A stretch of 40,212 nt of DNA from a virus. Where the stretch lies: positions 1 to 40,212 of IMG/VR virus record IMGVR_UViG_3300037493_003163; one strand, given 5' to 3'. This document shows positions 2,230-39,425 of this stretch, piece after piece. Numbering within the stretch: position 1 is the first letter of the stretch; every line of letters begins with the position of its first letter. The position numbers were made by a program, and so were the translations under genes. Below the pieces are notes generated by a model. The model was not told the DNA's origin and did not search any database. It saw only the letters and a program-made list of their open reading frames with translations.

Positions 2230-2230
2230 A

Positions 2231-2584
2231 ATGGAAGTAACTGGAGCAGTACACAATTTAGGCGAATCAATTACAGTAAGTGCATCTTACGAAAAGAGAG
2301 AATTAGTAATTAAGACATACGAGCAATATCCGCAGTTCATAGCTATTGAATTTGCACAAGGTAAATGTAACGAGATATTAGATACTTTATCTATAGGTAC
2401 AAATATCAAAGTAGGTATAAATATAGGAGGGCGAGAGTGGGTTAATCCACAAGGAGAAACTAAGTATTTTAACAGTATAAAAGGTTGGAGGATAGAAAAG
2501 TTAGCTGTTGCACAAGCTCCAAGTCCTCAATCATTACAAACAACAGATACTATAAACGACGAAGTAAATGACCTGCCTTTTTAG
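2231..2584 (+). CDS. DUF3127 OB-fold protein, probable ssDNA-binding
   Basis: A 117-residue protein that looks like the Bacteroidota DUF3127 family: beta-rich core (EVTGAVHNLGE, VIKTYEQYPQFIAIEFAQGK, VGINIGGREWVNPQGETKYFNSIKGWRIEKL). It ends in an acidic tail with terminal DLPF, closely resembling the D-I-P-F tail by which bacterial SSB recruits partners. With the exonuclease and RusA it forms a recombination and replication set. The family match is from memory of its motifs; SSB function is inferred from the OB-like core and tail. Confidence 0.8.
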   Translation: MEVTGAVHNLGESITVSASYEKRELVIKTYEQYPQFIAIEFAQGKCNEILDTLSIGTNIKVGINIGGREWVNPQGETKYFNSIKGWRIEKLAVAQAPSPQSLQTTDTINDEVNDLPF

Positions 2585-2773
2585 ATGCAAATCTGTAAAC
2601 ATTGTTTAAAACATAAGGCGTGTAAAAAACTTTATACGCCTGATTGTAAAGATTATAATCCGTTAATAATGGATAATTTAATCAAAGAATCTAAAAACAT
2701 TAAAACAACTCCAGAGAGGCGAAAAGAATTAGAAGATAAAATAAATTATTTTTATTATGCAAAAATTAACTGA
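2585..2773 (+). CDS. Small cysteine-rich, possible zinc-binding protein
   Basis: A 62-residue protein starting directly after the stop of the OB-fold gene. The first 22 residues carry four Cys and one His (ICKHCLKHKACKKLYTPDC), which could hold one zinc, followed by a charged helix. Its end overlaps the MazG-like gene by 17 bases, so the two are probably translationally coupled. Function unknown. Confidence 0.65.
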   Translation: MQICKHCLKHKACKKLYTPDCKDYNPLIMDNLIKESKNIKTTPERRKELEDKINYFYYAKIN

Positions 2774-3203
2774 TTTACAGCCTTTAATTATTGAATGGGC
2801 TAAAGAAAGAAATATACATTTAATAGAATGTGCACCAAAACAAAGATTAAAACTTATTGAGGAATGTGGCGAACTAGCAAATGCAATTTTAAAAGATAAT
2901 ATTGAAGAACAAAAAGATGCAGTAGGTGATATTTTTGTAGTACTTACGATATTGTCTGAACAAACAGGATTAGATTTTACTTTTAATTTTATAGAAGGAA
3001 ATACAAAAGAAATTCAATATTTAATTTATGGTTTAATTGGATATTCTTTTCCAGATTGGCAAGAAGAAAGTCCTTTTGATTGGTTAAATGATATTTGTCT
3101 TATATTAAATTTAGACTTTACTGAGTGCGCTAATTTAGCTTGGAACGAAATAAAATATAGAAAAGGAAAAACAGTAAACGGAACTTTCATTAAACATGTC
3201 TAA
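2757..3203 (+). CDS. MazG-like nucleotide pyrophosphohydrolase
   Basis: A 148-residue all-alpha NTP pyrophosphohydrolase candidate. Visible metal-binding signature: EECGEL at 35-40 followed by KDAVGDIF at 53-60, the E-x2-E ... D-x3-D pattern of MazG/dUTPase-like enzymes. Such phage enzymes hydrolyse NTPs or dNTPs, or lower (p)ppGpp, during infection; which substrate applies cannot be told here. The C-terminal half (about 70-148) is less typical. Confidence 0.8.
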   Translation: MQKLTDLQPLIIEWAKERNIHLIECAPKQRLKLIEECGELANAILKDNIEEQKDAVGDIFVVLTILSEQTGLDFTFNFIEGNTKEIQYLIYGLIGYSFPDWQEESPFDWLNDICLILNLDFTECANLAWNEIKYRKGKTVNGTFIKHV

Positions 3204-3291
3204 TATAACTAGAATCCTGCTAATAATAGACTTATATCATAGCAGAGGAAGTGTAAATAATGTTTATAGAAAAATTGTAGATATGAAATAA
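3196..3291 (+). CDS. Small protein overlapping the MazG-like gene
   Basis: A 31-residue ORF starting MSNITRILLI whose ATG overlaps the stop of the MazG-like gene (ATGTCTAA). Amphipathic helical appearance with the phrase SRGSVNNVYRKI. Overlap and length suggest a coupled small gene that ends the early segment; the promoter at 3275-3304 partly overlaps its end. Function unknown. Confidence 0.5.
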   Translation: MSNITRILLIIDLYHSRGSVNNVYRKIVDMK

Positions 3292-3304
3292 AGTATTATA
3301 TTTG
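3275..3304 (+). promoter_or_regulatory. Bacteroidota-type promoter
   Basis: A TTG at 3275-3277 and TATATTTG at 3297-3304 with a 19-base spacer match the -33/-7 consensus. It would drive the small HTH-like gene at 3373 and the replication genes behind it. Just downstream, AATAAGCCA (3313-3321) can pair with TGGCTTTTATT (3332-3342) in the leader, a possible attenuator. Confidence 0.65.
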
Positions 3305-3372
3305 TACAACAAAATAAGCCAGTTTAATTATTGGCTTTTATTAACTTTAATTTAGTAAAAAAATAAAAAATT

Positions 3373-28950: not shown

Positions 28951-29082
28951 GCACAACGTTTGGTGCTTGGCGAAGAAGCGGAAAAGTACACACTATTTTT
29001 CGATTAAGCCTAAATTTTAAAGACACAAAACAGATTATAAATTAATAACCGAACCCGCTTTTTTGCCAAATACTTGTTATGG
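28951..29082. repeat. Cassette site R1 (attC-like)
   Basis: Left core AACG at 28955-28958, right core GTTA at 29076-29079. Arms GTGCTTGGCGAAGAAGCGG and CCGCTTTTTTGCCAAATAC pair at 15 of 19 positions plus G-T wobbles. First full site of the array; its left core is CAACG instead of TAACG. Confidence 0.8.
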
Positions 29083-29112
29083 TTAGTGCGGTTCATAAAA
29101 CAAAATGTAATT

Positions 29113-29550
29113 ATGACAATAAACATTGATTTTGATGGAACTTGTGTTACTCACGAATTTCCAAATGTAGGAAAAAGTATTGGTGCTGAAAAAGTACTGA
29201 AAAGATTAGTTGATAATGGACATCAATTAATATTATTTACAATGCGTTCTGACCGAGAAGAAGCAAAACCTATAATTGACCCAACAATACAAAATGTCAC
29301 AGGTAAATTTCTAACAGAAGCGGTTGAATGGTTTAATAGAAATGATATTAAACTTTATGGAATACAGAAAAACCCAACACAATTAAATTGGACTACTTCG
29401 CCAAAAAGTTATGCGGAATTAATGATTGATGATAGCGCTTTAGGATGTCCTTTACGATATGATTTACAAGTTTCTGAAAGACTTTTTGTTGATTGGAAAA
29501 CAGTTGAGTTGTATTTAGAAAATATAGGTTGTTTTGAAAACGAAAAGTAG
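29113..29550 (+). CDS. HAD-like hydrolase (cassette C1)
   Basis: A 145-residue protein. DFDGT at residues 6-10 is the HAD nucleophile motif D-x-D-G-T, followed by a helix (AEKVLKRLVDNGHQLILFTMRSDRE; T/S motif II in LFTMRSD), and a late IDDSALGCPL with the acidic pair for metal. Resembles the BT0820-like HAD proteins of Bacteroidota. The ATG at 29113 is preferred; an upstream TTG in frame lies in site R1. Substrate unknown. Confidence 0.8.
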   Translation: MTINIDFDGTCVTHEFPNVGKSIGAEKVLKRLVDNGHQLILFTMRSDREEAKPIIDPTIQNVTGKFLTEAVEWFNRNDIKLYGIQKNPTQLNWTTSPKSYAELMIDDSALGCPLRYDLQVSERLFVDWKTVELYLENIGCFENEK

Positions 29551-29555
29551 CGCTT

Positions 29556-29711
29556 GCTACTAACGTTTAGTGTCTATAAGCAGTTGCCGAAAAACTGCCT
29601 AAACTTTAAATTAATCACTAATAATAACAAACACAAACTAAATTATAAATTATGGAAAATACAGACAAAAATACACAAGTACCACAATCTCTCAAGACTG
29701 CTGTTATAGAC
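29556..29711. repeat. Cassette site R2 (attC-like, long, hybrid)
   Basis: TAACG 29561-29565 to GTTA 29703-29706 (146 bp, longer than the others). The left half contains its own small hairpin GCAGTT/AACTGC and pairs poorly with the right arm CTCAAGACTGCTGTTA, which is shared with R11. Looks like a recombinant of two sites. Start codon of the next gene at 29652 lies inside. Confidence 0.65.
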
Positions 29712-29921
29712 CGTTTTTTTAAGAACTTGAAATATAAATTAACAAGTAGAACTATTTGCGATAATTGTGGAAAAGTAAATCCAAAAATATTAAAAACTAA
29801 AAGCGGTTACAGTAGATATACTCAATGTTGTGCTTATAGCGAAAATCAAAGTGCTGGTAAAACTTGGACGCAAAGATTGAAATTTCCTTTTAAAATATAT
29901 TGGTCAGGATTTTGGTCGTAA
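29652..29921 (+). CDS. Small zinc-ribbon-like protein (cassette C2)
   Basis: An 89-residue protein. The first 17 residues (MENTDKNTQVPQSLKTA) are encoded by site R2 and the rest by the cassette: CDNCGKVNPKILKTKSGYSRYTQCC gives a C-x2-C ... CC zinc-ribbon pattern. No ATG exists in frame in the cassette before the Cys motif, so the site is needed to start translation. Its N-terminus matches that of the 36576 gene (KNTQVPQ, KTAVI-RF). Function unknown. Confidence 0.65.
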   Translation: MENTDKNTQVPQSLKTAVIDRFFKNLKYKLTSRTICDNCGKVNPKILKTKSGYSRYTQCCAYSENQSAGKTWTQRLKFPFKIYWSGFWS

Positions 29922-29926
29922 AATGG

Positions 29927-30025
29927 CTCATAACGTTATGAAGCTTTGTCTTGTTGCCAAAAATACAAGACCAACTTTAAATTTATCACTAAACCCGCCA
30001 TTTCTTAAAACCGCTGTTACAAGCA
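29927..30025. repeat. Cassette site R3 (attC-like, short)
   Basis: TAACG 29932-29936 to GTTA 30017-30020 (89 bp). Strong inner hairpin GTCTTG/CAAGAC (about 29948-29971); outer arm pairing is only moderate. Shortened compared with most sites. Confidence 0.65.
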
Positions 30026-30049
30026 GTATGGCAATTTAAAACTAAAATT

Positions 30050-30616
30050 ATGAATATTACTGAAAGAAAAACTAAAATTTGGCACGGAACTTATAGAGGT
30101 GTTGCGTTTGAAATAAACAATTTTAAAACTCCTCCAAATAGATTTGATGATTACGAAAAAGATAATTGGACTTACTATTTGATTTTACATTTGAGTAGAA
30201 TACCCAAAGAAAATAACCCGAATAGTTTTTGGTTAAAAGCAAAAGCAGACGAGAAAGGTCGTGTTTACTACCCTTACCATAAACATCATATAATTACAAA
30301 TATTGACTTTGCAGGAGGTTGTACTTGGTATTCAAAAGAAAAAGGATTTGATGGCGAAAACAAAGTAATTAAAATAGGTTGCGATTATCAACATAGTTGG
30401 GATGAAGGTAGAGAATACGATTTAGAATTGGTAAAAAGAGATGTAATGAATACAATTGATGTGTTTTTAAATTATGTTACTGATTATAAATACTGGTGCT
30501 GTGGAAATGGAAAACTATATTCATTGAAAGATGGAATAGTTAAAAACGGAACTTTTTACAGCAAAGAATATTACGGAGATAAAGATTGGTTTCGTGATTT
30601 TGAAACGCAATCGTAA
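30050..30616 (+). CDS. Hypothetical cassette protein C3
   Basis: A 188-residue soluble protein rich in Trp, Tyr and His: FEINNFKTPPNRFDDYEKDNWTYYLILHL, YHKHHIITNIDFAGGCTWYSKEKGFDG, IKIGCDYQHSWDEGREYDLELV. Resembles conserved phage and plasmid proteins of unknown function that are often mobile. It has its own ATG outside the site. Cassette ends match: start GTTACAAGCAGTAT, end ATATTGCTTGTAAC. Confidence 0.7.
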   Translation: MNITERKTKIWHGTYRGVAFEINNFKTPPNRFDDYEKDNWTYYLILHLSRIPKENNPNSFWLKAKADEKGRVYYPYHKHHIITNIDFAGGCTWYSKEKGFDGENKVIKIGCDYQHSWDEGREYDLELVKRDVMNTIDVFLNYVTDYKYWCCGNGKLYSLKDGIVKNGTFYSKEYYGDKDWFRDFETQS

Positions 30617-30620
30617 TATT

Positions 30621-30757
30621 GCTTGTAACGTTTGGTGCTTGGCGAAGAAGCGGACAAATAAAAACTATCGTTTTCCCGAAGCCAAGAACACGGTAATAAA
30701 AAACAAACTTTAAATTAAAAACCGAACCCGCTTTTTTGCCAAACACTTGTTATAGGC
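30621..30757. repeat. Cassette site R4 (attC-like)
   Basis: TAACG 30626-30630 to GTTA 30749-30752 (127 bp). Arms GTGCTTGGCGAAGAAGCGG and CCGCTTTTTTGCCAAACAC pair almost fully. Almost the same sequence as R1, with a TTTAAATTAAAAACCG centre. Confidence 0.85.
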
Positions 30758-30781
30758 CGTACGGGTTGTAAAACGAAAATT

Positions 30782-30988
30782 ATGGCAACATTTGAAACAG
30801 TAGAAGTTGGAACTATTGCATTAATCCAGCAAACAGAAACAGGTAGAATTTTACAAATAGGATTAACCCCTAATCAAAGCGAAATGTTACAGTCTTTTTT
30901 GGCTGTAATTTCAAAAGAAAGTAAATTAATACAGATGTCAGAAGAATATGATTTGGTGTTAAAATCTTCTTTGAAAACGAAAATATGA
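30782..30988 (+). CDS. Hypothetical cassette protein C4a
   Basis: A 68-residue protein starting MATFETVEVG with a beta-strand N-terminus and helical C-terminus (PNQSEMLQSFLAVISKESKLIQMSEEY). First of two coupled genes in this cassette (ATGA overlap at 30985). No family recognised. Confidence 0.6.
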   Translation: MATFETVEVGTIALIQQTETGRILQIGLTPNQSEMLQSFLAVISKESKLIQMSEEYDLVLKSSLKTKI

Positions 30989-31413
30989 ATTATAAAATAA
31001 AACATTTACATCTTTTTTTGGAAGGAAAATTTGATTTAATCCCAAAGAGTTTAGGAGTTGAATTAGTTGAATTAGGAATATTAAACTATTTAAAATTAAC
31101 TCCTGAAAATTACGAATATTGGTGGTATGAAGTTGCTGATAAGTCTAAAATTGATAAAAAGAAATTCACTTTTAATTGGTCAGATTTAGTACCAACAAGA
31201 AAAATAGAAATGGTTAAGGATTTGATTCAATACCATAAAGAAACGGAAAGTATGTACAAATTAATAACTGCTATTTTGAATATTGAATCAGCTCGTTTTG
31301 ATGGAATAGATATAAATACAGGAAAATCGGAATTTGAAAGACAAATTGAATTTTATTATGGAAAATTTAAAAGTCAAGTCATTCAGATGCAGTTCGAGTT
31401 TAACTGCTGTTAG
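30985..31413 (+). CDS. Hypothetical cassette protein C4b
   Basis: A 142-residue, helical, acidic protein (HLHLFLEGKFDLIPKSLGVELVELGILNYLKLTPENYEYWWYEVADKSK ...) that ends FEFNCC. Its last codons run into the partial site R5, so the reading frame was probably cut or extended when the site decayed. Function unknown. Confidence 0.6.
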   Translation: MNYKIKHLHLFLEGKFDLIPKSLGVELVELGILNYLKLTPENYEYWWYEVADKSKIDKKKFTFNWSDLVPTRKIEMVKDLIQYHKETESMYKLITAILNIESARFDGIDINTGKSEFERQIEFYYGKFKSQVIQMQFEFNCC

Positions 31414-31416
31414 CCG
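31402..31416. repeat. Partial cassette site R5 (right half only)
   Basis: CTGCTGTTAGCCG with GTTA at 31409-31412 resembles the right end of the other sites, but no left core or left arm stands before it. Cassettes C4 and C5 also lack matching ends, so this boundary looks degenerate. Confidence 0.4.
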
Positions 31417-31454
31417 TTTGTGCTTTTATTACTAACTTTTAAAAATTATTATTT

Positions 31455-31685
31455 ATGAAAAAACCATCAGCTACACCAGAAATAGAAATCTTTGAAGATG
31501 AAATAGGAGCCGTTAGATTAGTACGGTCACTTTGTTATTATTTTGTTGAGGAAATTCCTAAAAAAGAAATCAGAGATGATTGTATTAAAAATAACAAACT
31601 ATTTCCAAAAACTACAAATCTTATAGAAAAGGATATGAGATTTAATAATTACGTTGAAGCTCTTAATTTTTGTGAAAACTTATAA
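31455..31685 (+). CDS. Hypothetical cassette protein C5a
   Basis: A 76-residue acidic protein starting MKKPSATPEI; EIEIFEDEIGAVRLVRSLCYYFVEEIPKKEIRDDC. Preceded by an AT-rich stretch TTTTAAAAATTATTATTT like other starts. Coupled loosely (16 bases) to the next gene. No family recognised. Confidence 0.6.
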   Translation: MKKPSATPEIEIFEDEIGAVRLVRSLCYYFVEEIPKKEIRDDCIKNNKLFPKTTNLIEKDMRFNNYVEALNFCENL

Positions 31686-31701
31686 AAAATAAAAATATCT
31701 T

Positions 31702-31953
31702 ATGAAAACTAAAAAAGACCATTTAAACGATTTAGCAAAATTAGCATTTAAAATTGATGATGTTTTGCAAAAACAACAAGAACGTTCTAAAAGATTAGCG
31801 CAAATGGCTATACTTTCAAAACAAGAACTAAAAGAAACTCCTGAATTTAAAAAACTAGAACAAGAATTTAAACATCCTCAATTTACGGGACCAAGTGAGG
31901 AATTACACGATTTAAGAATCATAGTTAAGCGACTACGTAAGTATAAGTTCTAA
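31702..31953 (+). CDS. Coiled-coil cassette protein C5b
   Basis: An 83-residue protein starting MKTKKDHLND, almost fully helical with LAFKIDDVLQKQQERSKRLAQMAILSKQELKETPEF and a basic end (RIIVKRLRKYKF). Two genes 16 bases apart in one cassette could be a toxin-antitoxin-like pair, but no motif supports this. Confidence 0.55.
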   Translation: MKTKKDHLNDLAKLAFKIDDVLQKQQERSKRLAQMAILSKQELKETPEFKKLEQEFKHPQFTGPSEELHDLRIIVKRLRKYKF

Positions 31954-31973
31954 AGAACCGAAAATGCAGTCTT

Positions 31974-32109
31974 GCTACTAACGTTCATTATTGTACTTGT
32001 AGCGACCTGACACAAGACGATGCAACGGTTCAATACTGATAACAACAAGAATTACAAATCTATAAATTAAACCAAAATCTAGCTATAAGTACAATATATT
32101 GTTACTAGC
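31974..32109. repeat. Cassette site R6 (attC-like)
   Basis: TAACG 31979-31983 to GTTA 32101-32104 (126 bp). Arms ATTATTGTACTTGTAGCGA and TAGCTATAAGTACAATATAT pair strongly around TGTACTT/AAGTACA. The left flank extends as GCAGTCTTGCTAC before the core. Confidence 0.8.
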
Positions 32110-32131
32110 TGTATTTTTAAATCCGAATATT

Positions 32132-32359
32132 ATGACAGTAGATGAAACTAATTTATTACACGAAAGAGCAAAAACAAAAAACGATGGCGTTTACTCATAT
32201 CAAGGTAATTTATATGTTGTAAAAGACAATAAATTTATTGCTTTTTCTGATTATCACGGTAATTGCCATCAAAGAATGGGAACGTTTAATGTGTCTATTG
32301 GAAAAGTAGAAGGATATGATAGAAAAAGAAAACTTCTTAAATGGTTACGTTCTCAATAA
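32132..32359 (+). CDS. Hypothetical cassette protein C6
   Basis: A 75-residue protein starting MTVDETNLLH, with YSYQGNLYVVKDNKFIAFSDYHGNCHQRMGTFNVSIG, beta-rich and basic at the end. Own ATG lies just behind site R6. Cassette ends match: GTTACTAGCTGTATT against AATATAGCTGATAAC. Unknown function. Confidence 0.6.
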   Translation: MTVDETNLLHERAKTKNDGVYSYQGNLYVVKDNKFIAFSDYHGNCHQRMGTFNVSIGKVEGYDRKRKLLKWLRSQ

Positions 32360-32363
32360 TATA

Positions 32364-32500
32364 GCTGATAACGTTTCGCAGCTACACGAGGCGCAAGGAT
32401 TCGGAAACTCGAGTATTTTCCGCTTAAAATAAACGTGATGCGAACCGTAAACGTCAATTTACTACAAAATTTGCAATAGCACAAAGCGAGTGTTAGTAGC
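32364..32500. repeat. Cassette site R7 (attC-like)
   Basis: TAACG 32369-32373 to GTTA 32492-32495 (127 bp). Arm pairing TCGCAGCTACACGAGGCGCAA with TTGCAATAGCACAAAGCGA is moderate, with an inner CGGAAA/TTTTCCG hairpin near 32401-32422. Confidence 0.75.
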
Positions 32501-32543
32501 TGGACGATTTATTAAAACGAATATTAATTATAAAAACTACAAA

Positions 32544-32753
32544 ATGACAACAGAAAAAGCAGAAAAATGGCTAAAAGCAACAGTACACGATATTTTTATG
32601 GATATGTGTTACTATGATAGAAAAAACGATGAAGATATGGGACATCAAAAACTTAGAGATTTAATGGATGAAGGAATTATAAGTAAAGAAATGATGATTA
32701 GAGTTTTTACAGAACAAATTGACAAAGAATATCCAGAAAAAAGTTCTGATTAA
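32544..32753 (+). CDS. Hypothetical cassette protein C7
   Basis: A 69-residue acidic helical protein starting MTTEKAEKWL; MDMCYYDRKNDEDMGHQKLRDLMDEGIISKEMMIRVF. The GTG at 32490 lies in the site and is in frame, but the ATG at 32544 is preferred. Function unknown. Confidence 0.62.
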   Translation: MTTEKAEKWLKATVHDIFMDMCYYDRKNDEDMGHQKLRDLMDEGIISKEMMIRVFTEQIDKEYPEKSSD

Positions 32754-32769
32754 GACGAATCGTAGTCTT

Positions 32770-32906
32770 GCTACTAACGTTCGCAGCTACACGAGGTTGC
32801 CTTTAAAAACTCGCAAAACTTTAAATTAATAACTTATGTTAACAAATACAAAACAACCAATTGAACCAGCCGAAAATGGCAATCTTGTTAAACCTGTGTT
32901 AGCCGA
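32770..32906. repeat. Cassette site R8 (attC-like)
   Basis: TAACG 32775-32779 to GTTA 32898-32901 (127 bp). Left arm nearly the same as R7 (TTCGCAGCTACACGAG), right arm GGCAATCTTGTTAAACC pairs with GAGGTTGCC. Contains the ATG of the next gene at 32836. Confidence 0.75.
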
Positions 32907-33111
32907 TGTATTAATTTGGACAGAAGATAAAGTTCACAATACACTTGAAGGTAGATTAGACAAAACTTTATTATTTGATATTGAAATTACAGGATATGGA
33001 GTTGTAATTTATCAAATGAAAAAAATGGCTGGTAATTTTATTTGTAAAAATAATTTAGAAGAAGCTAAAAATTATTGTCAAAATGTTCTTCTTTTAGAAT
33101 ATATCGGCTAA
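32836..33111 (+). CDS. Cassette protein C8, started inside site R8
   Basis: A 91-residue protein. The first 21 residues (from MLTNTKQPIEPAENG on) are site-encoded and the GTTA boundary falls at P-V-L-A. The cassette part is ADVLIWTEDKVHNTLEGRLDKTLLFDIEITGYGVVIYQMKK. The next in-frame ATG is far inside, so the site start is needed. The stop TAA is the left core TAACG of R9 (33109). Function unknown. Confidence 0.65.
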   Translation: MLTNTKQPIEPAENGNLVKPVLADVLIWTEDKVHNTLEGRLDKTLLFDIEITGYGVVIYQMKKMAGNFICKNNLEEAKNYCQNVLLLEYIG

Positions 33112-33231
33112 CGTTTGTGGCTTGGCGATGTTGCCGAACCGTGAACGTGAATTGAAAATATAAATATGATTTAACTGCGGATTTTCCGCTGAAAAACTAA
33201 ACGGCAATATTGCCAAACCACTGTTATAAGT
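33104..33231. repeat. Cassette site R9 (attC-like)
   Basis: TAACG 33109-33113 to GTTA 33223-33226 (118 bp). Arms TGGCTTGGCGATGTTGCCG and CGGCAATATTGCCAAACCA form one of the cleanest stems; a small inner hairpin GCGGATTTTCCGC sits between. A four-base bulge (GTTT) follows the left core, as extrahelical bases do in attC. Confidence 0.88.
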
Positions 33232-33241
33232 AGCTTTTATT

Positions 33242-33562
33242 ATGAAAATATCTTATGAAATTGTAGAAAAAATGGAAATATTTACGGTTTTAAAGCCTAA
33301 ATTAAAAACAATTACTAAATATATTGATGCTGTATTTGAGCAAGACAGAAAAATTAGTCTGAATTCTTTCGCTGATAAGGAAGATTTCGGGTTTTGTATT
33401 GACAAATTAAACAAAGAATGTGATAAACTAAACTTAATATGTGTTTTTGATGAATTGAATAGAGTTTATGAATTTAGACCAAAAAACATATACGCTAATA
33501 ACTCAAATTATGAACCTATTCATCGATATATGAACAAGGTCTTTCGAGAAAGTTACTTATAA
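33242..33562 (+). CDS. Hypothetical cassette protein C9
   Basis: A 106-residue protein starting MKISYEIVEK, mixed alpha/beta, with TITKYIDAVFEQDRKISLNSFADKEDFGFCIDKLNKECDKL. Its stop is the TAA of the core TAACG of R10. Cassette ends match over ten bases: GTTATAAGTA against TACTTATAAC. Function unknown. Confidence 0.65.
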   Translation: MKISYEIVEKMEIFTVLKPKLKTITKYIDAVFEQDRKISLNSFADKEDFGFCIDKLNKECDKLNLICVFDELNRVYEFRPKNIYANNSNYEPIHRYMNKVFRESYL

Positions 33563-33690
33563 CGGTTGCGTGTATGGGAAGTGCGGGATATAATAGTACT
33601 GACGTTTTAGTTTAAGACTAATTTCACAGATACAAACCGACTTTTAAATTAAGCCGTAAACCCGCATTTACTATACACGTTGTTAGTAGC
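33555..33690. repeat. Cassette site R10 (attC-like)
   Basis: TAACG 33560-33564 to GTTA 33682-33685 (126 bp). Arms GCGTGTATGGGAAGTGCGGG and CCCGCATTTACTATACACGT pair along their whole length. Centre ACTTTTAAATTAAG. The outer flanks TTACTTATAAC and GTTAGTAGCTG do not match each other, because they belong to different cassettes. Confidence 0.9.
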
Positions 33691-33734
33691 TGTTTATCTA
33701 TTTTACATTTATTTTAAAAATATTTGTAATTTTA

Positions 33735-33765
33735 TTAGGTAGTACAGAAATAAGTTGTATATTTG
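33735..33765 (+). promoter_or_regulatory. Promoter inside cassette C10
   Basis: TATATTTG at 33758-33765 with a weak -33 element (TTAG at about 33735). The leader after it (AAAGAAATAACAAC) is nearly identical to that of cassette C17, so the two cassettes share a promoter module. Confidence 0.6.
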
Positions 33766-33795
33766 TAAAAGAAATAACAACTAAATCAAATCAAA

Positions 33796-33951
33796 ATGAA
33801 AGCAATTGAAGTACAAAAAGTAATGAATAAAGCATTAGCAAACGGAAGTTATAAAAAAGCATACAACTGTTTTTTAAAAATGACAGAATTAAGAGCTACA
33901 GAAGGACTTCCTGTTTTAACAATGCCAAATTTACAAGCAAGATTTGAATAA
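33796..33951 (+). CDS. Small cassette protein C10a
   Basis: A 51-residue basic helical protein starting MKAIEVQKVM; NKALANGSYKKAYNCFLKMTELRATEGLPVLTM. First of three overlapping genes under their own promoter. Its stop overlaps the next start by 8 bases. An unknown protein; the promoter and tight coupling are what one sees for toxin-antitoxin or defence cassettes, but no such motif is visible. Confidence 0.55.
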   Translation: MKAIEVQKVMNKALANGSYKKAYNCFLKMTELRATEGLPVLTMPNLQARFE

Positions 33952-34189
33952 GACAGAAGAATATTGTAAAAAAGCAACTCAAGAAGAAATCCTTGAGTTG
34001 TTTAATACTTTATCAAAAAGATTGGTAAAGCATTTTAAAATAAAAGAAAATTCATCTTTAAAGGAATTGAGAACTAATTTTAAAAATAAGAAACAACACG
34101 ATTCTTTTTATGCAAAATCATTCAATGATATTAGAATGTATAACGCACATTTAGAAGATTTAAAAATTGTTATAAAACACATTTTATAG
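33944..34189 (+). CDS. Small cassette protein C10b (TTG start)
   Basis: An 81-residue basic protein from a TTG start overlapping C10a by 8 bases: EYCKKATQEEILELFNTLSKRLVKHFKIKENSSLKELRTNFKNKKQHDSFYAKSFNDI. Helical and Lys-rich. Overlaps the following GTG start as TAGTG. Function unknown. Confidence 0.55.
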   Translation: MNKTEEYCKKATQEEILELFNTLSKRLVKHFKIKENSSLKELRTNFKNKKQHDSFYAKSFNDIRMYNAHLEDLKIVIKHIL

Positions 34190-34356
34190 TGCAAAGACAA
34201 TCAATAATAGTATTCATTCAAAATGAACGAATAGAAACCTACGGAAACTTAAAAAAGTGTTGTGAAATTGAAAACTTAAAATACCACACTTTAGCACGTT
34301 TAAAATTCCCAATTCGGTTAAATGATGTCGTTATACACAAAACGCTCTTTAAATAG
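34189..34356 (+). CDS. Small cassette protein C10c (GTG start)
   Basis: A 55-residue protein from a GTG that shares a base with the previous stop (TAGTG): QRQSIIVFIQNERIETYGNLKKCC, then LKYHTLARLKFPIRLNDVVIHKTLF. The pattern YGNLKKCCEIENLKYHTL looks like a small DNA-binding domain used by Bacteroidota phages, but I cannot name a family. Confidence 0.55.
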   Translation: MQRQSIIVFIQNERIETYGNLKKCCEIENLKYHTLARLKFPIRLNDVVIHKTLFK

Positions 34357-34437
34357 CGGTTAACGTTTCGGGGCTTTATTTCAGTAGCGGATAAGTACAA
34401 AACCAACCGCCACTAGCTCAAGACTGCTGTTAGTGGC
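34356..34437. repeat. Cassette site R11 (attC-like, short, hybrid)
   Basis: TAACG 34361-34365 to GTTA 34429-34432 (72 bp). Left arm CGGGGCTTTATTTCAGTAGCGG is the type found at R17, but the right arm CTCAAGACTGCTGTTA is the type found at R2. Pairing is poor, so the site seems to be a recombinant or deleted form. Confidence 0.65.
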
Positions 34438-34465
34438 TGGTGCGGGTTAAAACAAAAAAAGCGTA

Positions 34466-34615
34466 ATGAAAAAATGGATTCAAAATTTCTTTGGTATTAC
34501 TCAAATTATTGAAGAAAAGAAAAAACAAACTAATTTATTAGAAAACATTTATAAAGAATGTAAAAAAAATTCAGATTTAGTAGAAGCCTATAATCGTGCA
34601 TATCACATTAGGTAG
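34466..34615 (+). CDS. Small cassette protein C11
   Basis: A 49-residue basic helical protein starting MKKWIQNFFG; ITQIIEEKKKQTNLLENIYKECKKN. Too short to classify. The cassette is about 200 bp, among the smallest. Confidence 0.55.
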   Translation: MKKWIQNFFGITQIIEEKKKQTNLLENIYKECKKNSDLVEAYNRAYHIR

Positions 34616-34620
34616 CACTT

Positions 34621-34757
34621 GCTACTAACGTTTGACGGCTATACGATGGTTGGGATTAAGTAAGCCGTAATTTTTCCTAAAACACAAATTATCCCGACAC
34701 AAAACAGATTTTAAATTAAAAAATTAACCCAACTATTGTATAACCTTTGTTAGCAGT
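34621..34757. repeat. Cassette site R12 (attC-like)
   Basis: TAACG 34626-34630 to GTTA 34749-34752 (127 bp). Arms GGCTATACGATGGTTGGG and CCCAACTATTGTATAACC pair in full with three wobbles or mismatches. Centre TTTTAAATTAAAAAA. Confidence 0.9.
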
Positions 34758-34776
34758 AGTTATAATACTAAAAGTG

Positions 34777-34935
34777 ATGAAAAAAGAAAAAGATTTTACG
34801 GCAGATATTGAACAAGTAAAAGAAGACTTATTAGCTCTTGAAAGAGAGATGGAAATTATGAAAGCAAAACTTGACGAAAAGCAAAAACACAAAGAAACTT
34901 TACAGTATTTTCTTGATACAATAGACTTTGAATAA
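34777..34935 (+). CDS. Coiled-coil cassette protein C12
   Basis: A 52-residue protein starting MKKEKDFTAD that is one long coiled coil (EQVKEDLLALEREMEIMKAKLDEKQKHKETLQYFLD). An in-frame TTG at 34747 in the site is not needed. Its ends are the best example of matching: GTTAGCAGTAGTTAT against ATAATTACTGCTAAC. Confidence 0.6.
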   Translation: MKKEKDFTADIEQVKEDLLALEREMEIMKAKLDEKQKHKETLQYFLDTIDFE

Positions 34936-34937
34936 TT

Positions 34938-35072
34938 ACTGCTAACGGTTCGCTAGTAGGCGATGGTTGGGGTAAAAATCACAATTATTCGAGCCAAAAA
35001 CAATAATAACAAGTACAAAAAATTAATAAATTAATCAAGATGCCCAACTATTGCTTACTAGCTGTTAGCGGT
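34938..35072. repeat. Cassette site R13 (attC-like)
   Basis: TAACG 34943-34947 to GTTA 35064-35067 (125 bp). Arms GCTAGTAGGCGATGGTTGGG and CCCAACTATTGCTTACTAGC pair along their length. An in-frame ATG at 35040 inside the right arm could start the next gene. Confidence 0.9.
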
Positions 35073-35102
35073 TGTTGTGGGTCGTTAAAACTAAATTTTA
35101 TT

Positions 35103-35975
35103 ATGAATATAGATTTATTTGGAAATGAAATAAAATTAGATGTTCTATTGAGAGATAAATTCATAGAACCACCATTTAGTATTCTGGACACCAAAACAGG
35201 GAGTTGGCAAAATAGGAAAAAACAATGGCAAAAAATAGGCATAAAATCTGAAATAGGCAGAAGCGCAAAAAGTTTCAATATAATGGAGTGGAGCGACAAA
35301 AATACTTATAATAAAAATATAGTGTTAAAATCAGATACTTCTATTTTTGATCCCGCATTATGTGAAGTATTATATCATTGGTTTTGTCCTATTGGTGGCG
35401 AAATATTAGACCCATTTGCTGGCGGTTCGGTTCGTGGAATTGTTGCAAATAAATTAGGTTTTAAATACACAGGCGTTGATATAAGACAAGAACAAATAGA
35501 TAGCAACAGAGAACAAGCATTTGATATTTTAGAAGCTAATAATCAGCCTCAATGGTATGTTGGCGATTCTAATGAAGTGTTAAATGATTTTAAAAAACAA
35601 TTTGATTTTGTTTTTTCTTGCCCTCCTTATGCTGATTTAGAAGTTTATAGTTCATTAGATGGCGATATTTCTAATATGAAATACTCTGATTTTATAGAAG
35701 CGTATGATAGTATTATTTCTAAATCTTGTAATTTATTAAAAAATGGTGGATATGCTTGTTTTGTTGTGGGAGAGGTTAGGGATAAAAAAGGGAATTATAT
35801 AGGTTTTGTTCCTGACACAATTAAATCTTTTGCAAAATGTGGAATGAAATTTTATAACGAAGCAATTTTAGTTCAATCAAATATGGCTATTGCTGGAATG
35901 AGAGCCAACGGTAATATGAAAACTGAAAAACTAGTAAAAGTTCATCAAAACATTCTAGTTTTTAAAAAATGTTGA
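35103..35975 (+). CDS. DNA methyltransferase (cassette C13)
   Basis: About 290 residues. SAM-binding motif I DPFAGGSVRGIVANKLGFKYTGVDI precedes catalytic motif IV SCPPYADLEVYS, then a late WVKMGGYACFVVGEVRDKKG-like core (here LLKNGGYACFVVGEVRDKKG). The PPY motif points to an N6-adenine or N4-cytosine enzyme with I-before-IV order. The ATG at 35103 is preferred; the ATG at 35040 in site R13 adds 21 residues in frame. The enzyme may protect the phage from host restriction. Confidence 0.82.
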   Translation: MNIDLFGNEIKLDVLLRDKFIEPPFSILDTKTGSWQNRKKQWQKIGIKSEIGRSAKSFNIMEWSDKNTYNKNIVLKSDTSIFDPALCEVLYHWFCPIGGEILDPFAGGSVRGIVANKLGFKYTGVDIRQEQIDSNREQAFDILEANNQPQWYVGDSNEVLNDFKKQFDFVFSCPPYADLEVYSSLDGDISNMKYSDFIEAYDSIISKSCNLLKNGGYACFVVGEVRDKKGNYIGFVPDTIKSFAKCGMKFYNEAILVQSNMAIAGMRANGNMKTEKLVKVHQNILVFKKC

Positions 35976-35998
35976 TTTTAACCGTAATTATAGCAATA

Positions 35999-36137
35999 AC
36001 CGCTAACGGTTCTCGGCTTTGTCTAGTGCCGAAAATTCAAGACAAATAATAAAAGTACAAACTAATTTTTAAATTAAAAACCGATGAATAAAAACACAAA
36101 ACCAAGTAAGGCATTAGTCAAAACCGATGTTAGCGGT
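35999..36137. repeat. Cassette site R14 (attC-like)
   Basis: TAACG 36004-36008 to GTTA 36129-36132 (129 bp). Arms CTCGGCTTTGTCTAGTGCC and GGCATTAGTCAAAACCGAT pair well. Contains the ATG of the next gene at 36084 within the conserved centre (AAATTAAAAACCGATG). Confidence 0.88.
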
Positions 36138-36503
36138 TCGGTTATTTTACCTTCTCAATTACGTTGTGGAAACACAATTGAATATTTCATTTCAACAGAT
36201 GATTTAGGATGGCTACCAACAGTTATTGATTGGCAAGATATAAGACTTTGCCACGAACAAAATGAAAGTTTTAATTTAGAACATCGAAAAATCCCTTTAA
36301 CAGAAAAATACATTTCCATTTATTTTCAAAAAGATTTAGACGGTTTTTATCGTAAAAACAAAGGATGTTTGATTGAGATTTTATTTCACGACAAAGGCGT
36401 TCAAGTTTGTTCTGATAGTGTTTGTTTAAATCATATTCAGTTTGTTAACGATTTTGAAAATTTGTTTTTCTCTTTATACGGTCGTGATTTAACTGACCGC
36501 TAA
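36084..36503 (+). CDS. Cassette protein C14, started inside site R14
   Basis: A 139-residue protein. Residues 1-15 (MNKNTKPSKALVKTD) come from the site; the cassette begins at V16. The protein has SGSVILPSQLRCGNTIEYFIS, DLGWLPTVIDWQDIRLCHEQN, and KYISIYFQKDLDGFYRKNKGCLIEILFHDKG, a beta-rich form seen in small conserved proteins of Bacteroidota phages. It stops on the TAA of the core of R15. Confidence 0.68.
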   Translation: MNKNTKPSKALVKTDVSGSVILPSQLRCGNTIEYFISTDDLGWLPTVIDWQDIRLCHEQNESFNLEHRKIPLTEKYISIYFQKDLDGFYRKNKGCLIEILFHDKGVQVCSDSVCLNHIQFVNDFENLFFSLYGRDLTDR

Positions 36504-36635
36504 CGTCCTGTGGCTTTGTCGTCGTTGTGGCGATTTAAGACCAAACTTAACAAATAATAACTAAAATTTAAAATTATGCCTGAACTTTCAAAAAATACCC
36601 AAGTGCCACAATGCGACAAAACCGCTGTTATAAGC
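36496..36635. repeat. Cassette site R15 (attC-like)
   Basis: TAACG 36501-36505 to GTTA 36627-36630 (130 bp). Arms GTGGCTTTGTCGTCGTTGTGGC and GCCACAATGCGACAAAACCGC pair along their length with one gap. Contains the next ATG at 36576. Confidence 0.88.
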
Positions 36636-36794
36636 CGTTTTTCTATTAATAAAATGATATTATCGGACTTTGCTTTATTCGCAATTATAGATAATGATAT
36701 GAATAAAGTAGTTTGCCATTTGGTTTATGATAACGGAGAAGAATACTGTAATGAAATGGCGAACAAGATAGTTAAGGCTTTAAATGGCTTATAA
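36576..36794 (+). CDS. Cassette protein C15, started inside site R15
   Basis: A 72-residue protein. The first 17 residues (MPELSKNTQVPQCDKTA) are site-encoded and resemble those of C2. The cassette-encoded part is VISRFSINKMILSDFALFAIIDNDMNKVVCHLVYDNGEEYCNEMANKIVKALNGL, a small alpha/beta domain of unknown function. The stop TAA is the core of R16. Confidence 0.65.
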   Translation: MPELSKNTQVPQCDKTAVISRFSINKMILSDFALFAIIDNDMNKVVCHLVYDNGEEYCNEMANKIVKALNGL

Positions 36795-36924
36795 CGGATA
36801 ACAAATAAACGCAGTAAATGATATGAAAGAAGAAATTTTAAGTATAGCATCAGACCTTCGAGAAGGTAGCATGACCACCAATGAAGCAAAGGAACATTTA
36901 TTGCGTTTATTTGGTGTTATAGGT
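36787..36924. repeat. Cassette site R16 (attC-like), protein-coding
   Basis: TAACG 36792-36796 to GTTA 36916-36919 (128 bp). Arms CAAATAAACGCAGTAAATG and CATTTATTGCGTTTATTTG pair almost completely. Unlike the other sites, most of it is an open frame from the ATG at 36823, coding residues 1-31 of the next protein. An inner hairpin CCTTCGAGAAGG (36855-36866) lies in the centre. Confidence 0.9.
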
Positions 36925-37029
36925 TCGGTTTGCGATTGTGTAATACCAAAACCTAAAGACCCATACCATGACTTAGATAGGAAGATTTGTCGAGATTGTA
37001 ACGGAAATATTGAGCAAACTGACCTATAA
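36823..37029 (+). CDS. Site-cassette fusion protein C16
   Basis: A 68-residue protein. Residues 1-31 (MKEEILSIASDLREGSMTTN, then EAKEHLLRLFG) are encoded by site R16 and residue 32 is the GTT of the recombination core. The cassette gives only the last 37 residues, with a CDC and a C-R-D-C zinc-like motif. The cassette is about 115 bp with no start codon of its own. The stop TAA is the core of R17. Function unknown. Confidence 0.72.
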   Translation: MKEEILSIASDLREGSMTTNEAKEHLLRLFGVIGSVCDCVIPKPKDPYHDLDRKICRDCNGNIEQTDL

Positions 37030-37159
37030 CGTCCTGTGGCTTTATTTCAGTAGCGGAAAAGTGAAAAACCATCTTTCGGTTATGCCTAAAGTTTACAAAT
37101 ACAGACTAATTATCGATTAAAAACCGAAACCGCTATTGAATAAAACCACTGTTATCGCT
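37022..37159. repeat. Cassette site R17 (attC-like)
   Basis: TAACG 37027-37031 to GTTA 37151-37154 (128 bp). Arms GTGGCTTTATTTCAGTAGCGG and CCGCTATTGAATAAAACCAC pair along their length. Confidence 0.9.
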
Positions 37160-37219
37160 AGTTGCGGGTTGTTTAGAAAAATATTTTAGAAAATAATTGA
37201 AATATTTTATAAAAACGCT

Positions 37220-37249
37220 TGTTTATTAGAAAATAAGTTATATATTTGC
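37220..37249 (+). promoter_or_regulatory. Promoter inside cassette C17
   Basis: TTG at 37220-37222, a 19-base spacer and TATATTTG at 37242-37249. The downstream leader AAAGAAATAACAAC is shared with the promoter of C10. It lets the two genes of C17 be expressed at any place in the array. Confidence 0.72.
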
Positions 37250-37290
37250 TAAAGAAATAACAACGAAGTTATTTTGTAAATATTAAAAAA

Positions 37291-37575
37291 ATGGAAACTC
37301 AATTAGCAAAAAACTGGAACAGATTAGAAAGAAGCGAAAAATTAGAAATTATCGAAAATGCAATCGATATGTGTAACACAAACGAAGGTTTTTTAATGTT
37401 AAGAACTTGGGCGAAAGATAATTCTGTAACTGCTCACGTTCAAACAAATTTAGACAATCATTTATGTTCTGAAGCTGTATCTCAAGATACTTTATTTTCT
37501 TTATTTGGAGCAGATTATGATTTTCAAGAAGAGGATGCAGAAGTTATTTTAACTTGGATGGAAAATCAAATATAA
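37291..37575 (+). CDS. Cassette protein C17a
   Basis: A 94-residue acidic helical protein starting METQLAKNWN; RLERSEKLEIIENAIDMCNTNEGFLMLRTWAKDNSVTAHVQ. First of two coupled genes (TAATG junction) under their own promoter. Function unknown; the arrangement is compatible with an antitoxin-toxin or defence pair without proof. Confidence 0.62.
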   Translation: METQLAKNWNRLERSEKLEIIENAIDMCNTNEGFLMLRTWAKDNSVTAHVQTNLDNHLCSEAVSQDTLFSLFGADYDFQEEDAEVILTWMENQI

Positions 37576-37775
37576 TGCCTTTCATTCTAAAAACTAAAGA
37601 AACCGAGCAATATAGATTGTTCGGTTCTTTACCTATCCTTTGCCGTAGCATCGGATTTGACAAAAAACAAGAGAAGTCATTAAGTTATGTATTTTCTCAA
37701 AAAAAAGAAAATCAGTTTGAAAATAACGAGTTTCTAATTGTGAAAGTCGTTTTAGAACGTGGTGGTAGCAATTAG
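37575..37775 (+). CDS. Cassette protein C17b
   Basis: A 66-residue basic protein starting MPFILKTKET; EQYRLFGSLPILCRSIGFDKKQEKSLSYVFSQKK. The ATG shares one base with the upstream TAA. KTKETEQYRLFGSLPILCRSIGFDK followed by a two-turn segment may be a small DNA-binding domain, as in short phage regulators; unproven. Confidence 0.6.
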   Translation: MPFILKTKETEQYRLFGSLPILCRSIGFDKKQEKSLSYVFSQKKENQFENNEFLIVKVVLERGGSN

Positions 37776-37910
37776 CGATAACGTTCCCGTGCTTGGTGCA
37801 GTGCGGGCTAAAAATGCACCAATTTTCAATTAATAACTAAACATAACAGATATGCAAGATAATAAAATTAATGACAAATCCCCGCATTGCTCCAAACACG
37901 TGTTACCAGC
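37774..37910. repeat. Cassette site R18 (attC-like)
   Basis: TAACG 37779-37783 to GTTA 37902-37905 (127 bp). Arms CGTGCTTGGTGCAGTGCGGG and CCCGCATTGCTCCAAACACG pair along their length with one or two mismatches. Contains the next ATG at 37852. Confidence 0.9.
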
Positions 37911-38589
37911 AGTGCCTTCTTCGGATGTTTATTTGGAAGATTGTGTAACGGCATTAAAACGCTTTAACGATAACCATTTTGATTTGGCAATAGTTGACCC
38001 GCCTTATGGGATAGGAGCAGACAAAGCCCAAAACAACGCCGCTATGCAAAGGATAAAGGCGAATGGCAAAAGCAAGGCAGGGAGAGGGTGGAAATTATAC
38101 GCTGATACCGATTGGGATAATGAAATACCTACTGCGGATTATTGGGCTGAATTGCGGAGGGTATCTAAAAATCAAATTGTGTGGGGCGGAAATTACTTTA
38201 CTGAACACCTACCGCCATCAATGGGCTGGATAGTTTGGGATAAAGGGCAAAGGGATTTTAGTTTAGCAGATGGCGAATTGGCTTGGACTTCATTTGATAA
38301 GGCTTTAAGAATATTTGAAATGAGCAGAGGAAAAGCATTAGCAAAGAACAATGAGCGAGGCGGTAGATTTCATCCAACACAGAAGCCCGAAATGCTTTAC
38401 GATTGGATTTTATCAAACTACGCAAAGCCAAATGATTTGATTTTAGATACTCATTTAGGAAGTGGAAGCAGTAGGATTGCATCGTATAAAGGCGGTTTCA
38501 ACTTTGTAGGATTTGAAATTGACTGCGATTATTTCAACGCCCAAGAGAAAAGATTTAAGGAATTTAAAAGTCAGTTACGTTTGTTTTAA
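37852..38589 (+). CDS. DNA methyltransferase, beta class, started inside site R18
   Basis: A 245-residue enzyme. Motif IV DPPYGIG at 49-55 precedes motif I-type DTHLGSGSSRIASYKGGFNFVGFEID near the end, with FHPTQKPEMLYDWI before it, the layout of beta-class N6-adenine/N4-cytosine enzymes. The conserved domain begins at SDVYLEDCVTAL just behind the GTTA core, and the cassette offers no ATG before it, so translation must start in the site. Base composition is less AT-rich than its neighbours, suggesting recent transfer. Confidence 0.85.
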   Translation: MQDNKINDKSPHCSKHVLPAVPSSDVYLEDCVTALKRFNDNHFDLAIVDPPYGIGADKAQNNAAMQRIKANGKSKAGRGWKLYADTDWDNEIPTADYWAELRRVSKNQIVWGGNYFTEHLPPSMGWIVWDKGQRDFSLADGELAWTSFDKALRIFEMSRGKALAKNNERGGRFHPTQKPEMLYDWILSNYAKPNDLILDTHLGSGSSRIASYKGGFNFVGFEIDCDYFNAQEKRFKEFKSQLRLF

Positions 38590-38611
38590 TAGATAAAGAG
38601 TATTATATTTG
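38581..38611 (+). promoter_or_regulatory. Promoter of the homing endonuclease gene
   Basis: TTG at 38581-38583, a 20-base spacer and TATATTTG at 38604-38611, a full match. The ATG at 38616 follows 4 bases later, so the transcript would be leaderless or nearly so. Confidence 0.6.
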
Positions 38612-38615
38612 CAGT

Positions 38616-39260
38616 ATGAAAAGTGGAATATATCAAATATCTATAAATAGCAAAACCTATATTGGTTCAGCAACAAATATCTATAATAGGAAACATAGGC
38701 ATTTACACGACCTTAAAAACAATAAACATTGCAACGGTAAACTACAAAACTATTTTAATAAATACGGAATAGAAAACCTATTGTTTGAAGTTATTGAGGT
38801 TTGCGATATTGAAAGTTTGCTTATTAGAGAGCAATATTTTATAGATAGCAAAAAACCATTTTTTAATATTTGCAAAATTGCAGGAAATTCAAAAGGAGTT
38901 TTACATTCTGAAAAGACAAAAAAGCAATTTAGCAAAGATAGAAAGGGTAAACAAAACTCATTAGGCAGGGTTTTAAGTGAAGAAACAAAAACGCTAATAT
39001 CAATTAAAGCAAAAGAACGAGGATTGCATAAAAACTTTATTTCAGCATCTATAAAAGCAAATACTGGCAGAATACACAGCAAGGAAACCATTGAAAAAAG
39101 AATTTCAAAACAACTTAAATTAACAAAATTACAAGTTGATGAAATTAGGCAAATGCTTATAGACGGGATTAGGCAAGTCGATATTGCTAAAAAATATGCA
39201 ATAACGCAAAGAGTTGTAAGTAAGGTTAAAAACAAAATTGGATATTATGCTAATATTTGA
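38616..39260 (+). CDS. GIY-YIG homing endonuclease
   Basis: A 214-residue protein. GIYQI...KTYIGS at 4-18 is the GIY-YIG motif, with conserved Arg nearby (NRKHRH) and the catalytic Glu in LLIREQYFID. NUMOD3-type DNA-binding repeats follow (GVLHSEKTKKQFSKDRKGKQN, LSEETKTLISIKAKERG, RIHSKETIEKRISKQ), and a C-terminal HTH (LTKLQVDEIRQMLIDGIRQVDIAKKYAITQRVVSKVK). It has its own promoter and stands between a methyltransferase gene and a second copy of that gene's tail, so it has probably moved in as a selfish gene. Confidence 0.9.
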   Translation: MKSGIYQISINSKTYIGSATNIYNRKHRHLHDLKNNKHCNGKLQNYFNKYGIENLLFEVIEVCDIESLLIREQYFIDSKKPFFNICKIAGNSKGVLHSEKTKKQFSKDRKGKQNSLGRVLSEETKTLISIKAKERGLHKNFISASIKANTGRIHSKETIEKRISKQLKLTKLQVDEIRQMLIDGIRQVDIAKKYAITQRVVSKVKNKIGYYANI

Positions 39261-39333
39261 AATAGACAAAGAATATTATGAGAAACAAGAAAAGCGTTTT
39301 AATGACTTTAAATCACAACTACGGTTGTTTTAG
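39247..39333 (+). pseudogene. Remnant tail of a methyltransferase gene
   Basis: An in-frame stretch encoding FEIDKEYYEKQEKRFNDFKSQLRLF followed by TAG, matching the end of the upstream methyltransferase (FEIDCDYFNAQEKRFKEFKSQLRLF) at 18 of 25 residues but with many base changes (about two thirds identity by eye). The rest of the gene is missing. It is the displaced end of a second version of the methyltransferase, cut off when the endonuclease gene came in. Confidence 0.82.
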
Positions 39334-39346
39334 CGGTGTCGGTTTT

Positions 39347-39361
39347 GGCATTGCTGGTAAC
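39347..39361. repeat. Terminal left core that closes cassette C18
   Basis: GGCATTGCTGGTAAC is the reverse complement, apart from one base, of GTTACCAGCAGTGCC at the start of C18 (37902-37916). It marks the end of the last cassette, now containing both the methyltransferase and the endonuclease. No right half follows. Confidence 0.8.
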
Positions 39362-39379
39362 TACTGGACATACGAAACT

Positions 39380-39425
39380 AAAGTGGTAATTAACCAATAA
39401 AATCAACACTTATGATTACCACTTT
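39380..39425. repeat. Inverted repeat over a start codon
   Basis: AAAGTGGTAAT (39380-39390) and ATTACCACTTT (39415-39425), a perfect 11-bp inverted repeat with a 24-base spacer. The second arm covers the bases right after the ATG at 39412, so an RNA hairpin could block translation of that gene. Confidence 0.6.

Follow-up and report, generated by a model that had tools for sequence, protein, structure and literature searches.

The window, that is, the whole stretch of 40,212 nucleotides analysed here (IMG/VR virus record IMGVR_UViG_3300037493_003163), is a circular phage contig with 126-bp direct repeats at both ends, whose terminase is nearest to that of Flavobacterium phage pippi8-1 (41%). 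It carries a long array of gene cassettes, and we focus on one of them, cassette 16, in which a small protein-coding gene begins inside a recombination site. Cassettes were detected through chains of complementarity between cassette ends, after stem score alone had failed to separate sites from background and was dropped as a site finder. The chained portion of the array spans 32492-39361, and sites before 32492 were read by eye. Eleven consecutive cassettes of the window start with GTT plus 6-7 nt and end in the exact reverse complement of these plus AAC, so that the R' and R'' ends are complementary for 6-7 nt beyond the core, which is the signature of integron cassettes. The ends of cassette 16 are exact inverted repeats, GTTATAGG at 36916 and CCTATAAC ending at 37030. 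The relevant features are the following.

28955-39361, plus strand: cassette array; all genes lie on this strand and every attC is inverted relative to the genes
29652-29921, plus strand: ORF MENTDKNTQVPQSLKTA^VIDRFF..., a relative of the second coding-attC family, its tail found in L068 behind another N-terminus
32836-33111, plus strand: fused ORF of the second phase class (..GTG TTA..), read across the attC core
35040-35975, plus strand: methyltransferase (PF01555) ORF with a possible attC start, ambiguous in that a later ATG is also present
36084-36503, plus strand: fused ORF MNKNTKPSKALVKTD^VSGSV..., beginning in its own attC
36576-36794, plus strand: ORF of the second coding-attC family, MPELSKNTQVPQCDKTA^VISRF..., the same N-terminus standing on about 8 tails in other phages
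36792-36796, no strand: R' end, TAA^CG, with the probable crossover at 36794|36795, directly 3' of the stop of the upstream ORF (36576-36794)
36793-36918, minus strand: attC site R16; minus is the classical (top) strand, and the plus (coding) strand is the recombinogenic bottom strand
36795-37029, plus strand: cassette 16, the mobile unit, an attC followed by a complete ORF; its last base is the last base of the stop codon
36823-36915, plus strand: attC-encoded N-terminal module MKEEILSIASDLREGSMTTNEAKEHLLRLFG, recognized by its recurrence in phages, its open frame and an AF2 model
36916-36918, plus strand: GTT, codon 32 (Val) and inner (R'') end of the attC, where the tails of relatives diverge; distinct from the probable crossover
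36916-37026, plus strand: Cys-rich tail of 37 residues with no in-frame start of its own
37027-37030, plus strand: TAAC, in which the stop TAA overlaps the next R' crossover (TAA^CG)
37852-38589, plus strand: methyltransferase (PF01555) ORF starting in its own attC, phase-2 class
39359-39380, plus strand: 3' boundary of the array, GGTAAC|TACTGGACATACG, by position the likely equivalent of the attI-like site of relatives

The last cassette also holds a GIY-YIG/NUMOD3 homing endonuclease (38616-39260), 3' of the methyltransferase gene.

The ORF at 36823-37029 encodes 68 aa, and its first 31 codons lie within an imperfect inverted repeat running from AAC at 36793 to GTT at 36916. Folded as single-stranded DNA, the coding strand of R16 reaches -18.0 kcal/mol against -7.9 +/- 2.3 for shuffled sequences (z = -4.5, with 0/200 as stable), and the opposite strand -14.1 kcal/mol (z = -3.0). 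An earlier note on this DNA had described an ORF that opens inside the hairpin, codes 31 residues there and reads GTT as codon 32 before a Cys-rich tail of 37 residues, and in all of this it was right. The tail (VIGSVCDC...CRDCNG) is devoid of in-frame ATG, GTG and TTG codons and therefore offers no place of its own for translation to begin.

Polarity, crossover and cassette movement

A classical attC site reads RYYYAAC-A ... C-G^TTRRRY and is cut in its CGTT end. On the gene strand the window sites read TAACG ... TGTT, the reverse complement of this. In its folded strand, its R'' AACA / R' CGTT polarity and the longer spacer before R', the site has the properties of an attC, and the CGTT side has the longer unpaired spacer in 70/70 phage sites (17 loci) as well as in 46/48 Bacteroidota chromosomal sites. 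With sites and genes running in opposite directions, the attC comes to stand at the 5' end of each gene and not 3' of it, as is usual. Phage cassette genes occupy the anti-classical strand in 64/65 cases and in a further 70/71 (together 134/136), as opposed to IntI-linked Bacteroidota chromosomal arrays with 56/64 genes on the classical strand and 8/64 inverted; some loci in these counts are redundant contigs, and the strand assignment behind 64/65 versus 56/64 rests on the CGTT/AACG marks that also underlie the polarity claim, whereas the spacer and movement tests do without them. Among the chromosomal arrays, one beside a full-length IntI (L155:15134-19751) has mostly anti-classical, unfused genes and repeated cassettes.

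Junctions of attC recombination have been documented (PMC9892861), and those of the present arrays can be read from cassettes held in common. The window block 36792-37030 is also found, 96.7% identical, in an unrelated phage contig (G017/L115), and three other loci (L109, L118 and L022) have a common unit ending at AACG. The cassettes that phages share consist of an attC and its downstream gene; a comparison of shared-cassette boundaries found no units of a gene and its downstream attC common to phages. Baltic Flavobacterium phages bear the same kind of arrays. Two of them, lillamy9-1 and lillamy9-3 (L171, L172), have equal genome length and blocks 98-100% identical, and differ by one 439-bp attC-plus-gene unit that has moved intact from the middle of the array to its 3' end, with junctions TAAC|G. 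The moved cassette sits at an attI-like array end, the conserved TAAC|TACAATATTACATG; the window boundary GGTAAC|TACTGGACATACG is a weaker match, alike at the first bases only. Among ten Flavobacterium phages, 108/130 breakpoints fall at TAACG, 5 near GTT and 17 elsewhere. In these relatives, then, cassettes travel whole, crossing over at R'.

As polarity, spacer asymmetry, shared-cassette boundaries and the lillamy movement agree, we infer that the crossover is TAA^CG, at 36794|36795 and 37029|37030. The earlier note had instead taken GTT for the crossover core, the cassette for a donor of the 37-residue C-terminus only, and insertion for an event that changes that C-terminus. Our own initial reading also placed the crossover at GTT and was overturned by polarity, breakpoints and the lillamy movement. 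The cassette would be 36795-37029 and include the attC, the N-terminus and the tail, just as the 439-bp unit moved whole. With start and stop within one unit, the C16 ORF would survive insertion intact, and with a stop codon at the crossover cassettes could be inserted, removed and moved without damage to the flanking ORFs.

It is highly probable that we are dealing with an inverted integron cassette of the form [CG - attC - gene - TAA], whose attC provides the start and 31 codons, with the frame running on through GTT and the TAA lying at the crossover. At the level of sequence, the comparisons establish how the cassettes are built and that many Bacteroidota phages share this architecture, that attC and gene move together at TAA^CG, and that the frame of the N-terminus is kept open.

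The window itself encodes no tyrosine recombinase (PF00589), so its array may be fixed; it lacks the integrase that a complete integron carries in the same element, and a search of four isolated relative phages for an integrase found none either. The large relatives G007 and G018, on the other hand, encode Xer-like tyrosine recombinases of 265-267 aa, a family found at 38 IMG/VR loci (L182-L219; e.g., L182:2080-2880) and present in 37 related viral contigs. We tried the G007/G018 recombinase as a true IntI (TIGR02249) and rejected it, as it scored 157 bits against a cut-off of 265 and fell short on the IntI-specific insertion, profile positions of about 208-253 being unmatched in the G007 protein. 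The motif AAC-N1-6-TATATA occurs 48-57 bp before the recombinase start in 29/30 distinct upstream regions, against 0.8 expected from shuffling, and the arrays adjoining the phage recombinase have inverted genes in 70/71 cases. Judged by its layout, the combination of recombinase, attI-like site and arrays is the intI-attI-cassettes geometry, and the family appears to mark a lineage of phage integrons that bring their own integrase. A decayed remnant of the phage recombinase lies beside a module-1 cassette in G015 (L112 / L084:1446-1790).

N-terminal modules and re-pairing at GTT

The earlier note had the impression that short proteins with this N-terminus (hereafter module 1) and varied ends exist, and a pattern scan of IMG/VR (query E-A-x3-L-L-x-L-F-G-V, about 20 contigs recovered) bore it out. 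About 18 distinct phage sites carry the motif M-x-x-x-I-x-x-I-x-x-x-L-x-x-x-x-I-T-x-x-E-A-x-x-x-L-L-x-L-F-G followed by 15 different tails, breaking exactly at residue 31/32. Every break falls at GTT, and a leader AACG...AATAAA...GATATG precedes the ATG in most contigs. About 9 of the 15 tails are Cys-rich, with CxxC-type zinc-binding motifs. Across the 18 sites, frame 0 contains 0 stops, as against 73 and 36 in the other two; the two length variants arise from indels of whole codons. The dN/dS ratio is 0.04-0.30 in several close pairs and above 1 in some more distant ones, probably because stem pairing constrains synonymous sites too; in the close pairs, these ratios support selection on module 1 at the protein level. 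AlphaFold2 (AF2) predicts helices at residues 2-14 and 19-29 (block-mean pLDDT of about 94, 94 and 89 over residues 1-30) and an unstructured, low-confidence C16 tail, and the model suggests that module 1 is a genuine helical-hairpin domain.

In length and in the pattern L..G.IT..EA..LL, it resembles the SHOCT-like helical hairpins of Pfam. Membership of that family was considered and rejected: 2/16 members match (best E = 0.042), and the Pfam cut-off is not reached. A phage protein search with the 35-aa N-terminus gave no match up to E 10, the query being too short for that database; when 84,980 genomes of bacteria and archaea were scanned for the pattern, 9 chance hits but no real module came up, and an A1 profile search of 395 Bacteroidota genomes, run there without a positive control, gave nothing.

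A second coding-attC family, M.ELSKNTQVPQCDKTA^V, is found in the window (36576, with a relative at 29652), at 9 other viral loci and in 28 isolated-phage records, with about 8 unrelated tails. This module 2 may amount to hardly anything beyond a stem arm that can be translated. One tail, FFKNLK.KLTSRT.CDNCGKVNPKIL, is found behind two different N-termini.

The methyltransferase cassettes speak to the same point. Between hemulen/snork and filifjonk/mumin, a methyltransferase body is 99.2% identical from GTT on (gene strand, L174 1946-2843 versus L178 1184-2081), while the two attC stem arms have been exchanged as a pair, with no change to the frame or to the loop that bears the ATG. The comparison shows what appears to be no simple GTT crossover, yet residues next to the core were evidently exchangeable. 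Going by such alignments, attC and gene have in the past been re-paired at GTT. Of the combinatorial tails once proposed for this site, the re-pairing of N-terminus and tail at GTT in evolution thus stands, but not as a routine outcome of insertion, given 108/130 breakpoints at TAACG.

We also considered a wider scheme, in which a phage integron lineage (short Xer-like integrase, TATATA-type attI, inverted coding cassettes) re-pairs the N-terminal hairpin domain with tails in frame by low-frequency top-strand recombination at GTT; taken as a whole it is speculative, and we think it unlikely. A crossover at GTT that keeps the N-terminus and swaps the C-terminus with each insertion would require top-strand use of attC or a reversed polarity, and we regard it as distinctly improbable. 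It would account for attC-plus-N-terminus segments common to phages at 93-96% identity with unrelated tails, in which identity stops 3-5 nt past GTT, for the methyltransferase body that keeps frame and length behind different attC arms, and for single tails behind different N-termini (window 29703 and L068; L007 and L003). The core phase, mostly 0, would moreover keep frames compatible. However, all unambiguous recent movements are at TAACG, polarity and spacer asymmetry favor the same position, the methyltransferase case changed both arms and retained the loop, unlike a simple GTT crossover, and two incompatible phase classes coexist within one array. Chromosomal integrons, too, usually carry the same attC on many genes without tail swapping, which counts against such a device.

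Probable translation of the attC and a proposed mechanism

In 34 of the 77 phage cassettes no longer than 700 bp, an ORF that opens at an ATG of the attC closes no more than 25 nt from the cassette end, against 0.48 expected from Markov shuffles, and about 40-50% of phage cassette genes start within their own attC, in frame across GTT. Bacterial integron arrays have 0/66 fused ORFs on either strand, and in Bacteroidota chromosomal cassettes the genes have their own starts at a median of 34 nt past the core. The core of 50 strictly fused ORFs (redundant contigs included) is read in phase 0 (GTT = Val) in 39, in phase 2 (..GTG TTA..) in 10 and in phase 1 in only 1; the phase 1 frame would often give TAG. 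Phage annotators placed one methyltransferase CDS start within its attC, and in lillamy9-1 the predicted attC-encoded N-terminus runs across the core as MTELSKNAQVPQCDKTT-VIAST....

That the attC frames are open by chance or structure only, with translation starting elsewhere and the N-terminal extension never made, is very improbable in view of this excess of 34 over 0.48, the tails without any later start (C16 and several others), the codon-wise indels and the single stop-free frame at 18 sites, and the confidently predicted hairpin, even though some cassettes do have a later ATG (class 'fused_or_own') and the residues of module 2 follow from the stem sequence. Hardly any credence can be given to the idea that these are not integrons but small genes whose spread is due to homologous recombination of the ordinary kind or to an unrelated hairpin element: the missing integrase in the window and in the four isolated relatives searched and the sub-cut-off phage recombinase would fit it, but not the chains, as long as 12 cassettes, with exactly complementary R' and R'' ends, the attC-like spacer asymmetry, the movement to an attI-like end or a recombinase family adjoining an attI-like site.

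We thus return to the inverted cassette with a coding attC, which could work as follows. A phage or host integrase would recombine the sites on the folded coding strand; in a phage without integrase such as that of the window, the enzyme may be supplied in trans by a host IntI or a co-infecting phage. Full-length IntI is present in 107/395 sampled Bacteroidota genomes (G019-G414; match E <= 1e-60). Transcription would be directed to the attI end, and the attC-gene fusion would be translated from a start in the attC loop. Stem-loops of attC sites hinder translation (PMC8876359); ribosomes crossing the attC would open the hairpin and so evade this block. The stop codon at the crossover would leave both neighbors whole after insertion. 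The N-terminus would be the resident attC part, joined to many genes across evolution. One attC type on many genes is familiar from integrons, and a recurring N-terminus with varied tails would be its inverted-orientation form.

Comparison with known integron systems

Integrons and integrase-less attC arrays (CALINs) have been described in phages, including virulent phages of Bacteroidota, with methyltransferase cassettes and some attC sites that recombined with attI1 in E. coli (Qi et al. 2023, PMC9892861). The present arrays are alike in having attC sites without an integrase and methyltransferase cassettes. The published ones, however, have the typical gene orientation, and start codons or N-terminal coding by attC go unmentioned, whereas the present phages have inverted genes, a 5' attC coding the N-terminus and, in many cases, their own short integrase. 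In one phage of that study, Polaribacter phage P12002L, the end-complementarity detector used here found no chain. The publication on the Baltic phages (PMC7077304) speaks of neither integrons nor cassettes. The limited literature we searched contained no report of inverted cassettes, attC as 5' coding sequence or the recombinase/attI platform, a weak hint that the inverted architecture with a coding attC may be new. Our data point to an integron lineage that phages carry, with an integrase and an attI of its own; its inverted cassettes may have kept it out of earlier surveys.

The cultured Flavobacterium phages and their hosts, with their cassette movement, form a ready experimental system. 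Their plating efficiency was tied by the authors to a methyltransferase gene, the LMO9 phages that plate poorly on LMO6 being reported to lack one methyltransferase (Nilsson 2020, PMC7077304). One methyltransferase cassette (L176, gene strand, about 2172-3338) is present in snork, hemulen and mumin and absent from lillamy9-1, and this may be the one missing in the low-plating LMO9 phages. With one coding attC found in frame on many different genes, the attachment of attC sites to new genes, a long-standing open question, also becomes testable.

Bacteroidota chromosomal integrons agree with the phage arrays in attC polarity, spacer asymmetry and cassette-end complementarity, but differ in their classical-strand genes, own starts and 0/66 fusions. 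ORF-11 of attI1 and the short ORFs of attC sites (PMC8876359) are a further parallel, since there a recombination site with a start codon aids cassette translation, as the phage attC would, and passage of ribosomes through attC stem-loops is of consequence. Those ORFs, however, encode short separate peptides that act by termination-reinitiation, whereas the phage attC forms the 5' portion, in frame, of the gene with which it shares a cassette.

In the phages, a recombination site would do double duty, as DNA folded for recombination and as the 5' end of a gene, with a stop codon marking the crossover. Synthetic attC sites within protein-coding sequence were reportedly designed for domain shuffling (Nivina et al. 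2020). Both kinds of site are readable protein segments, but the phage ones are natural, with a probable crossover outside the reading frame, and would be the natural parallel to the designed coding attC.
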